Below are positions 56,096 to 58,688 of a DNA stretch of 64,000 nucleotides, one piece after another (the first letter of the stretch is position 1; the number at the start of each line of letters is the position of its first letter). The position numbers were made by a program, and so were the translations under genes. The notes below the pieces were generated by a model that worked only from the letters and a program-made list of their open reading frames with translations, had not been told where the DNA came from and searched no databases. The stretch comes from Caenimonas aquaedulcis (GTDB lineage Bacteria > Pseudomonadota > Gammaproteobacteria > Burkholderiales > Burkholderiaceae_C): assembly GCF_015831345.1 (NCBI RefSeq), contig NZ_JADWYS010000001.1:3190618-3254617 (forward strand). Reading direction: 5' to 3'.

Positions 56096-57463
56096 CTAGG
56101 CCGGGACGGGCTCGCGCATCGTGACAAATTCCTCTGCTGCGGTCGGGTGGATGCCGATCGTTGCGTCGAACACCGCCTTGGTGGCCCCCGCCTTCATCGC
56201 CACCGCGAACCCCTGCACGATCTCGCCGGCATCCGCGCCGACCATGTGCAGGCCCACGACGCGGTCGGTTTTCGCGTCGACCACGAGCTTCATGAGCATG
56301 CGCTCGCCGCTGCCCGAGAGGGTGTGCTTCAGCGGCTTGAACTCGCTGCGGAAAATTGTCACGCTCTCGAAGGCCTTGCGCGCCTGGTCCTCCGTGAGGC
56401 CGACGGTGGCGATGTTCGGGTGCGTGAACACCGCAGTGGGGATGAAGTCGTAGTCCATCTTCCGCCGGCCCTCGCCGAACAGCTTGTCCACCACCGCCAT
56501 CGCCTCGCCGAGCGCGACCGGCGTGAGCTGGATGCGCGCGGTGACGTCGCCCACCGCGTGGATGGAGGGCACCGAGGTGGCGTAGGTGCCGTCCACGGCG
56601 ATCGCGCCGTCCTTGCCCTGTTTGACGCCGGCCGCATCGAGCCCGAGCCCGTTCACGTTCGGCACGCGGCCCGTCGCATACAGCACGACATCCGCCTGGA
56701 GCGTGCTGTTGTCGGAAAGCTTGACGTCCAGGCCGTGCGCCGAACGCGCGATGCTGCGCACGTCGGTGCCGATGCGCAGGTCGATCCCGCTGCGGGTCAT
56801 CTCGCGCGCGATGAAGCCGCGCACGTCCGGGTCGAAGCCGCGCAGCACCTGCTCGCCGCGATAAAGCTGCGTCACCTTCGAGCCCAGCCCGTTGAAGATC
56901 GAGGCGAATTCGCAGGCGATGTAGCCGCCGCCGACCACCACCAGGCGCTTGGGAAAGGGGTCGAGGTCGAACATGCTGTCGGACGTCAACACGTGTTCGC
57001 GGCCCGGGAATTCGGGGACGCTCGGTGTGCCGCCGGTGGCCACGAGGATGTGCTTTGCCTTGATCGCCTTCACGCCATGCGTGGTGCGTACCGACACCGC
57101 ATGCGGGCCCGTGAGCGTCGCCCAGCCGCGCACGATCTCCACGCCGGGGCTCTGGAGCAGTTGCTGGTACACCGCGTTGAGCCGCGAGATCTCCTTGGCG
57201 CGGTTGGCCTTGAGCCGCGCCCAGTCGAAGCGCGGTGCGGTGACGTCCCACCCGTAGCCCGCCGCATCCTCGATGTCGTGCGCGAAGTGCGCCGCGTAGC
57301 TGTAGAGCTTCTTCGGGATGCAGCCCACGTTGACGCAGGTGCCTCCCAGCGCCGCGGCCTCCGCCAGCCCCACGCGCGCGCCGCGCTGCGCCGCCATGCG
57401 CGCCGCGCGCACGCCCCCGCTGCCGCCGCCGATGACGAAGAGGTCGTAGTCAGTGTCTGCCAT
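56096..57463 (-). CDS. gor: Glutathione-disulfide reductase
   Basis: 455 residues. FAD motif DLFVIGGGSGGVRAARMA, redox disulfide Cys43-Cys48 in GGTCVNVGCIPKKL, NADP domain VVVGGGYIACEFASIFNGLG, and the C-terminal HPTAAEEFVTM with the catalytic His. It reduces GSSG with NADPH in the cytoplasm. GGAGGA precedes ATG 57461-57463; nine more upstream codons are open but unlikely. The structured repeat pair begins 89 bases upstream. Confidence 0.95.
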   Translation of the reverse strand: MADTDYDLFVIGGGSGGVRAARMAAQRGARVGLAEAAALGGTCVNVGCIPKKLYSYAAHFAHDIEDAAGYGWDVTAPRFDWARLKANRAKEISRLNAVYQQLLQSPGVEIVRGWATLTGPHAVSVRTTHGVKAIKAKHILVATGGTPSVPEFPGREHVLTSDSMFDLDPFPKRLVVVGGGYIACEFASIFNGLGSKVTQLYRGEQVLRGFDPDVRGFIAREMTRSGIDLRIGTDVRSIARSAHGLDVKLSDNSTLQADVVLYATGRVPNVNGLGLDAAGVKQGKDGAIAVDGTYATSVPSIHAVGDVTARIQLTPVALGEAMAVVDKLFGEGRRKMDYDFIPTAVFTHPNIATVGLTEDQARKAFESVTIFRSEFKPLKHTLSGSGERMLMKLVVDAKTDRVVGLHMVGADAGEIVQGFAVAMKAGATKAVFDATIGIHPTAAEEFVTMREPVPA

Positions 57464-57551
57464 GGGTGTCCTCCGGTTTGGAGCGGGCATCTTGCCGGAA
57501 TTGGAGGCGGAGTGTCGTGACGGCGCGCTTTTGCTGTCTTGTGACTTGCGC

Positions 57552-57786
57552 GGGTCGCGTCAGGCGGTATGCGGCAGGGGCTCATACTGTGGCGGTTTTT
57601 GCTCCGCAAAAACTCCGCTGCTTTCGCTGCTCCGGCGGCGGCACCGCAAGAACTCGCTTCGCTGCGCTCTCGCTCAAACACTTGCGGTGAGTCAGTTCAC
57701 AAGGCGCGCAAGCGCGCTCCGCCGCCGGAGCAGCGAAAGCAGCCGCCACAGAAATCGCCCCTGCCGCACACCGCCTGCCACGACCC
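57552..57786 (+). repeat. Structured inverted element, copy A
   Basis: 235 bases between gor and the histone-like gene. The outer ends are inverted repeats (GGGTCGCGTCAGGCGG at the left against CCGCCTGCCACGACCC at the right). An inner perfect 23-bp stem pairs 57617-57639 with 57721-57743. The 81-base apical part has CCGCAAG at 57644-57650 pairing with CTTGCGG at 57681-57687, and a small GCGCGC-AA-GCGCGC hairpin. It has the same apical sequence as copy B in reverse orientation but entirely different inner-stem sequence. No protein-coding potential is evident. Confidence 0.8.
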
Positions 57787-57831
57787 GAGGAGTGGCGTGC
57801 CTGCGGTTTGAACATCCGAGTACCACTCTCC

Positions 57832-58064
57832 GGGTCGCGGCAGGCGGTGCCCGGTAGGGGCGATTTCTGCGGCGCCTGGGATTTCCGGGCTGGGGGCGGG
57901 CGCGCTTGCGCGCTTCGTGAACTGACTGGCCGCAAGTGTTTGAGCGAGAGCGTCAGCGAAGCGAGTTTTTGCGGCCCCGCCCCCAGCCCGGAAATCCCAG
58001 GGAAGTTTTGCGAAGCAAAACCGCCGCAGTATGAGCCCCTACCGGGCACCGCCTGACGCGGCCC
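57832..58064 (-). repeat. Structured inverted element, copy B (opposite orientation)
   Basis: 233 bases. The ends are inverted repeats (GGGTCGCGGCAGGCGG against CCGCCTGACGCGGCCC). An inner perfect 26-bp stem pairs 57875-57900 with 57976-58001. The apical 75 bases, read on the minus strand, match copy A over about 60 bases (AACTCGCTTCGCTG, CGCTCTCGCTCAAACACTTG, AGTCAGTTCAC). The two copies are separated by 45 bases (57787-57831). Confidence 0.8.
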
Positions 58065-58094
58065 TGCGCGCGCCACCCAAACCAACGGCCCATG

Positions 58095-58126
58095 AAAAAA
58101 GCCCGACACCTTCCGGCGTCGGGCTT
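58095..58126 (-). terminator. Rho-independent terminator of the histone-like gene
   Basis: On the minus strand AAGCCCGAC, loop GCCGGAAGGT, GTCGGGCTT and a run of T follow the stop of the 58147-58614 gene by about 20 bases. Confidence 0.88.
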
Positions 58127-58146
58127 GAGCGGTGAACCGCTTTCCG

Positions 58147-58614
58147 TCAGGGCTTGCTGGCCGTGGGGAAAGGCCATGCGGCCTGCGGGTTCAGCGTGGT
58201 CTGCGCTGCCGGCATCGCCGGAGCAGCGGCAGGCGCCGCCTTGGCTACCGGTTTCGCGGCAGCTTTCGCAGGGGCCTTGGCAGCAGGCTTTTTCGCTGCT
58301 TTCTTCGCAGGCTTTTTCGCAGCCTTCTTGGCAGCCTTTTTCGCAGGGGCCTTTTTGGCGGCCTTCTTCGCCGTCGTCTTCTTGGCGGCCTTTTTCTTGG
58401 CAGGCGCCTTCTTCGCGGCCTTCTTGGCCGCGGTCTTCTTCGCCGGCGCCTTCTTCGCGGCCGACTTCTTGGCGGCCGGACGCTTCGCGGCAGCCTTCTT
58501 CGCTGCCGGACGCTTCGCTGCGGCCTTCTTCGCCGGAGCCTTCTTCGCTGCCGACTTCTTGGCCGGAGCCTTCTTAGCGGCCTTCTTCGCCGTTGCTTTT
58601 TTCGCAGTTGCCAT
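58147..58614 (-). CDS. Histone H1-like (AlgP-type) Lys/Ala-rich DNA-binding protein
   Basis: 155 residues made almost wholly of AKK/PAKK/AAK repeats (for example AKKAPAKKSAAKKAPAKK), very basic, with a less basic C-terminal end (AAWPFPTASKP). Such tails resemble eukaryotic histone H1 C-termini and bacterial AlgP/HctB-type proteins, which bind and compact DNA. I chose the ATG at 58612-58614 because AGGAG lies 8 bases before it but only 2 bases before the upstream ATG at 58620. The codon-level repetition makes the locus prone to length variation. Confidence 0.88.
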   Translation of the reverse strand: MATAKKATAKKAAKKAPAKKSAAKKAPAKKAAAKRPAAKKAAAKRPAAKKSAAKKAPAKKTAAKKAAKKAPAKKKAAKKTTAKKAAKKAPAKKAAKKAAKKPAKKAAKKPAAKAPAKAAAKPVAKAAPAAAPAMPAAQTTLNPQAAWPFPTASKP

Positions 58615-58688
58615 TTTCATTTCTCCTGTTCAAGTTGATCAACATCAACCGATTTGCACTCCATGCTTGTTGGTTGCACGGAGCGATC

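Follow-up and report, generated by a model that had tools for sequence, protein, structure and literature searches.

A head-to-head pair of large covarying hairpins is a repeated intergenic unit in Caenimonas aquaedulcis and other Burkholderiales

Introduction

Two long hairpins lie in opposite orientation, a few dozen bases apart, at positions 57552-58064 of the 64,000-nucleotide stretch of the Caenimonas aquaedulcis chromosome that was analysed (contig NZ_JADWYS010000001.1, positions 3,190,618 to 3,254,617; hereafter the window). Their apical parts are alike and their stems are not, which raises the question of whether they are a structured RNA, a mobile DNA element or the product of duplication by inversion, all of which a first-pass annotation of the sequence had put forward. 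The reading that we favour, and consider rather likely, is that they form a non-autonomous mobile DNA unit of ∼515 bp, in which two big structured hairpins are inverted around a short spacer.

Results and discussion

Architecture of the composite

The composite measures 513 bp and consists of element A (57552-57786, minus strand, 235 nt), a 45-nt spacer (57787-57831) in which GAGTGG..CCACTC makes up a short inverted repeat, and element B (57832-58064, plus strand, 233 nt), with the 5' ends of both elements toward the spacer; the boundaries first proposed for the two elements are thus retained. Each element forms one long hairpin in which P1 is the outer and P4 the inner stem, with an asymmetric internal loop, the stem P2 and a side hairpin P3 between them and the apical domain beyond P4. 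On the plus strand of B, P1 pairs 57832-57861 with 58035-58064, as seen both in the fold and in covariation (helix 1, with double change in 19 of 25 pairs). The internal loop that follows (57862-57866 on the 5' side, 58030-58034 on the other) appears in the fold and in alignment A3, most of whose type-I elements do not pair there, and P3 (58005-58021; fold, covariation helices 8 and 9) creates a three-way junction. The inner stem P4 of B joins 57875-57900 to 57976-58001 (repeat comparison and fold; partly counted as helices 3 and 4), and this 26-bp stem of the first-pass annotation is contained in 31-nt arms (57875-57905 / 57971-58001) that are 94% complementary. Between the arms of P4 is the apical domain (57901-57975, modelled as R1), comprising a GCGCGC hairpin P5, the linker CGTGAACTGACT, stem P6, a core with invariant GA..GAG letters, and the terminal hairpin P7. 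The inner stem of A (57617-57641 with 57719-57743, minus strand) is perfect, as had been reported, but is 25 bp long and 100% complementary rather than 23 bp, while the apical near-identity of A and B covers 53 nt at 92% instead of about 60.

From their translations, we take one gene next to the composite to be glutathione-reductase-like and the other to be histone H1-like and rich in lysine and alanine. The lysine/alanine-repeat gene (58147-58620, minus strand) adjoins the composite, and an intrinsic-terminator-like hairpin outside the element (58099-58126, minus strand) lies between the two.

Conservation of the fold and the constrained strand

Fold energies were 14.6-15.4 standard deviations below those of dinucleotide shuffles, and folding by chance is excluded because none of 200 shuffles did as well in each of three folds. 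The claim of compensatory change had been drawn from the two copies in the window, which are insufficient as proof; 51 elements now provide it. In alignment A3, which holds these 51 of 66 type-I elements (seven near-identical copies from the C. aquaedulcis genome and eight divergent elements were left out), 96.4% of cells pair across 66 named pairs and 55 of the 66 show double-sided change. Double-change cells numbered 440, compared with 102.8 in shuffles and at most 58 in slid controls, in every one of which pairing was below 49%. The structure scored was taken from the fold of the window element and from A3 itself, which favours that structure, and columns 50-62 with 189-200, where pairing is seen in only about half of the sequences, were omitted from the named pairs. 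At these omitted columns many of the unpaired type-I elements have a GAGNAGCGCAG / CGAGCANCGCAG-like internal-loop motif.

The apical domain behaves similarly. The first loci yielded 107 elements, 101 of them full length, of which 85 were kept, and in an apical alignment (A1) of 73 of the 85, double-sided change was found in 16 of 21 pairs. Two P7 pairs are poorly kept (unpaired in 33 and 45 of the 73), and one apical pair varies among G-C (42), A-T (25) and C-G (5); judging from the letters, the invariant G and A next to this varying pair could form tandem G.A pairs. Conservation of the fold with compensatory change in the stems is thus strongly supported, and the possibility raised at first pass that further copies would lack stem covariation was examined across many genomes and did not hold. 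The element is a very clear case of a fold, rather than a sequence, being conserved in an intergenic repeat.

Mismatches in the stems are strongly skewed. In the arms of the 85 elements, isolated G.T mismatches numbered 105 and A.C mismatches 8, beside 147 others that were mainly purine-purine, while the 2693 cells of A3 contained 91 G.T, 8 A.C and 90 other mismatches. The bias was weaker in a partly overlapping second set (G.T/A.C of 42/14 in 39 type-I and 50/11 in 35 type-II elements). Because G.T is far above A.C, one strand must be constrained as a folded single strand, and from the direction of the bias this is the strand with its 5' end toward the spacer in both members, which lie on opposite DNA strands. 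The strand bias fits either RNA or single-stranded DNA as the active form of the hairpins, and speaks against an origin that is purely double-stranded or due to correction.

Pairs, single elements and end types

All 37 close pairs among at least 80 named loci have the order reverse-complement element, spacer, element, as do all 42 neighbours 150-700 nt apart in four genomes for which all 144 hits were listed. The head-to-head pair, proposed earlier to be the product of duplication by inversion, is instead a fixed unit. Across the named loci model R1 finds a single apical domain at 44 of the 81 sites, but some of the 44 lie at the end of the sequence examined, and profile search detects a partial partner at some single sites (e.g. 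L137, L160, L167). The pair is thus the usual form but not the sole one, single elements being common as well. Of the neighbours with gaps of 0-150 nt, one has the inverted order and five are on the same strand, all five in genome G015. In the one of these five doublets that was read (L295, 560-1050), the apical domain is duplicated around an N, and this doublet probably arose in assembly, as an artefact at the hairpin tip.

Outside C. aquaedulcis, 34 of 38 composites measure 499-600 nt, with GCGNCAGGCG at one outer end in 27 of the 38 and a CCTTTGCCGC-like sequence at the other in 20. The two members usually differ in type: of the 34 close pairs in named loci with both members longer than 120 nt, 31 combine type I with type II and three have type II twice. 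Two type-I members occur in the C. aquaedulcis composites and, in other genomes, at L036, L037 and L069.

Copies in the genome and evidence for mobility

The C. aquaedulcis genome (4.52 Mb, 2 contigs) carries five intact composites with spacers of 45-47 nt. The four beyond the window are 97% (C1:1978315-1978826 and C1:314850-315362), 91% (C1:218000-218512) and 87% (C1:1255916-1256425) identical to that of the window, and C1:2800712-2801092 is a cut form, further cut forms lying where the two contigs end. Four other full-length copies of element B are 93-98% identical to that of the window, one is 87% identical and a cut copy 97% identical; A has two stem versions in this genome. The view that the stems are unrelated consequently applies to A versus B and to one species versus another, where divergence is marked, and not to the B copies of this genome, whose stems are not random. 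All four contig ends (C1 and C2; L014, L015, L016, L017) fall within an element's apical part. It seems that assembly broke off at hairpin tips or at the repeat, and the element may account for the breaks.

That the element is mobile, as had been suggested, is supported by an empty site. For copy C1:1978315-1978826, at least nine of 59 genomes of the genus give a single continuous alignment with the joined flanks and lack the element there; in eight empty-site genomes that we aligned the element is absent, with intergenic divergence blurring the exact junction. None of the 29 relatives that were examined has an element at the gor locus of the window (best E 0.19), although a different neighbour gene there makes this not a clean empty site. 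Among the matches listed, the copies of C. aquaedulcis are the most alike, the best-scoring hit in the 58 other genus genomes reaching 79% and shorter pieces at most 84%. The flanks of the five intact composites, read for target-site duplications, contained none that was clear.

Distribution

Relatives recognizable at the DNA level occur in 28 of 59 genomes of the genus and in 119 of 399 sampled genomes of the family, representing 56 of 141 genera, and the apical covariance model R1 raises the count in the genus to 44 of 59 (C. aquaedulcis is included in this and all other counts). R1 also finds the element in 10 of 300 genomes of the order, including two further families, and in 3 of 369 genomes of a class sample, one of them weakly; these order and class counts are rough lower bounds, with 11-13 candidates scored per genome and a short calibration of R1. 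The carriers, several of which are metagenome bins, include Variovorax, Acidovorax, Ottowia, Rhodoferax, Ramlibacter, Rubrivivax, Rhizobacter, Aquincola, Methylibium, Piscinibacter, Hydrogenophaga and Tepidimonas, and one genome gave 76 apical hits. A genome of another family (G673) has a hit at E 6.7e-5 and, placed in the inverted order, another that is weaker still; both matches are weak, and it is not counted as an established carrier. An origin in phages or plasmids was rejected, as blastn at E 1e-5 against 72,556 records of plasmids and 50,697 of phages gave no match and IMG/VR contained no exact 20-nt match to the element.

Rfam 15 returned no family at its gathering score anywhere in the window, leaving without a match the comparison that the first-pass annotation had recommended; the sub-threshold hits in 57450-58150 were mostly miRNA precursors, far under the cut-off. 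A search of openly licensed literature by title and start of abstract found no description of the element, which is no proof of absence. The element would add a large, widespread class of repeats of Burkholderiales chromosomes that the Rfam 15 cut-offs miss.

Placement among genes and the case for a functional RNA

Elements avoid the gaps between divergent genes. The first placement set of 60 loci comprised 32 tandem, 17 convergent and 1 divergent gap and 10 edges (divergent, 1/50), and the second, of 81 sites in at least 80 named loci, comprised 28, 16, 1 and 36 respectively, while control gaps of at least 80 bp were 68 tandem, 10 convergent and 49 divergent. For the second set the deficit in divergent gaps (1/45 vs. 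49/127; Fisher P = 6e-7) and the difference in convergent gaps (Fisher P = 3.5e-5) are both clear against the controls. The two sets overlap in some loci, the single divergent case probably being one Aquincola locus in both, and genes were called with a simple codon-score finder that missed the window gene at 58147-58620. Distances to gene 3' ends (median 92.5) and 5' ends (138) did not differ significantly (P = 0.09). Avoidance of divergent gaps may reflect purifying selection rather than choice of target.

Such placement bears on the strongest rival to a mobile DNA unit, that the hairpins are mainly a functional RNA, a 3'-end structure protecting or ending transcripts that enter from either side. 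An inverted unit would present its second hairpin in the constrained orientation whichever way transcription runs; 38 of 42 measured distances from stop codon to pair fall within 20-180 nt, and the absence of bias in orientation relative to transcription (10 vs. 5) is expected of a symmetric device. A three-way junction, invariant unpaired letters, the possible tandem G.A beside a covarying pair and the tolerance of G.T and not of A.C all look RNA-like as well. Set against these points is the frequency of G.T itself, only 2-3.4% of pairs (105 beside 5027 standard pairs; 91 of 2693 cells), which is low for an RNA helix. Moreover, no terminator-like or promoter-like site was found within 57552-58064, the upstream gene already has a terminator-like hairpin of its own, and neither of the two loci tested retains the element from one species to another. 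On balance we regard a mainly RNA function as rather improbable.

Relation to REPINs and other known elements

REP sequences are 20-40 bp palindromes whose foot is tagged by GTAG or, in a second superfamily, by CGTC (PMC3733652, PMC8266576). The element shares with REPINs and BIMEs an inverted doublet with a short spacer, non-autonomy, many copies and extragenic position, and its compensatory stem change resembles that described for REPINs (PMC3116915). The element could be an ordinary, merely longer REP/REPIN family of a resident RAYT, or Y1 transposase: a Y1_Tnp gene is present in 57 of 59 genus genomes, in one copy in most, and CGTC, the tag of one REP superfamily (PMC3733652), stands just outside the stem (CTCGCGTCGCGGCAGG) at many left feet outside C. 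aquaedulcis. Yet the hairpins, at 233-235 nt, are about 10 times longer, have no GTAG foot, contain a three-way junction with conserved loops and come in two end types in most named loci. Nor are they linked to the RAYT genes examined: none of four RAYT loci fetched has an element, RAYTs occur in genomes both with and without detected elements, and the RAYT of C. aquaedulcis is flanked by an unrelated inverted repeat. On the loci seen, RAYT was rejected as the direct mobilizer, and we consider membership in an ordinary RAYT family quite unlikely; by its length, foot and linkage the element also departs from the known REP with random stems that had been raised as a possibility. The best reading of this comparison is that the element would work like a giant REPIN that differs in length, GTAG and RAYT linkage from those described (PMC3116915, PMC8266576, PMC3733652). 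At locus L094 (1430-2253, in the G000:C1:3509436 region) a single Y1/RAYT gene lies between the copies of a 23-nt inverted repeat, TTAATTGGGGTCAGATTCCAATT, which is perfect and has shorter forms at L092 and L093.

Hairpin-templated correction acting at the DNA level can make stems perfect as a by-product, with no selection on the fold, and would accord with very long perfect stems and low G.T, but we give this explanation little credence here as the internal loop and the mismatches of the apical domain have been preserved rather than corrected and correction alone would leave no bias of G.T over A.C.

Like MITEs, the element is non-autonomous, short and intergenic, with inverted ends, and one copy (C1:1978315-1978826) is absent from the orthologous site in relatives; unlike them, its ends are large covarying folds rather than plain terminal repeats, no clear target duplication was read in the flanks of the five intact composites, and no parent transposase was found among the ten gene-enclosing pairs examined. 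The ends of IS200/IS605 elements and integron attC sites also act as folded single strands with conserved unpaired letters and variable stems. The ends of our element, in contrast, are inverted rather than on the same strand and are much larger, and no integrase or TnpA was found alongside. IS200/IS605 elements form a same-strand synapse, which does not fit the element because one DNA strand holds the constrained strand of only one member. The beta-proteobacterial repeat element BRE is likewise chromosomal, intergenic and multi-copy in Comamonadaceae and other Betaproteobacteria, but its unit is ∼90 bp, often tandem and variable in number (PMC3110155), whereas ours is a ∼515-bp head-to-head composite; the distinction is one of described architecture.

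A proposed mobile unit recognized in trans, and its possible cargo

Under the mobile-unit reading that we prefer, each hairpin would be read as a folded single strand by a putative enzyme supplied in trans, the two members would serve as left and right ends, and stem sequence would be free to vary while pairing holds. The apical arm P6-P7 would be the part read by this enzyme, because the two members of a composite share P6-P7 and share the other parts no more than members of different composites do. In 19 composites outside C. aquaedulcis, partners were more alike than expected in P6 (0.74 vs. 0.62) and P7 (0.78 vs. 0.59), with 0 of 2000 permutations equalling either value; the tip of P4, P5 and the linker showed no excess and the core loop was borderline (119/2000). 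Within genomes the sharing of P6/P7 was weak in G020 and G012 (for P7, 47/1000 and 61/1000) or absent in G149 and G000 (1000/1000 and 311/1000 for P7 in these two others), and it is because of this control that the idea of recognition in trans rests on sharing between genomes and that a partner-specific pairing of the two apical arms is not claimed. The letters shared by partners suggest that one recognizer per lineage may see both ends. The element offers a concrete model of how a long structured single strand could act as a transposon end.

Some pairs are farther apart. In the four fully listed genomes all four neighbours separated by 0.7-3.5 kb have the inverted order, whereas the five separated by 3.5-8 kb do not. 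We examined ten pairs with 0.8-2.3 kb between their members (L199, L267, L268, L282-L285, L292-L294), and their contents are passengers or other elements, with no convincing autonomous copy and no enzyme found in the ten and no convincing gene in L282. Of ten enclosed proteins, from eight of the pairs, that were scanned against Pfam, four had no match; those above the cut-off were DUF6678, MAPEG, HEPN_RiboL-PSP, an IS110 transposase and a group II intron reverse transcriptase, and a helix-turn-helix/MqsA match was under it. Some enclosing pairs may be neighbours by chance or may have served as targets for elements that seek hairpins, and we treat the carriage of cargo as a lead. A more ambitious reading, offered tentatively and as possible rather than probable, is that these are members of a new class of bacterial transposable unit with large, distinct, protein-read ends, spread across Burkholderiales by an unrecognized enzyme family and existing in an empty 515-bp form and a loaded form, which in that reading would carry accessory genes (MAPEG, DUF6678, HEPN, HTH-antitoxin-like) between its ends.

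The group II intron reverse transcriptase (L294, 1330-2709) and the IS110 transposase (L293, 1257-2513) each lie between paired elements; group II introns and IS110 elements are known to choose hairpins or repeats as targets. The GC content flanking single elements is about the same on the inner and outer sides in most, with a clearly lower inner value at L199 and a somewhat lower one at L195. In genome G020, loci L267 and L292 have a common inner sequence beside the left element (..GGCTATAGTGTTGC..ATCGATGTGG..) and differ in content, and in L292 the right side has a similar inner sequence in inverted form, an arrangement that resembles a cargo platform.
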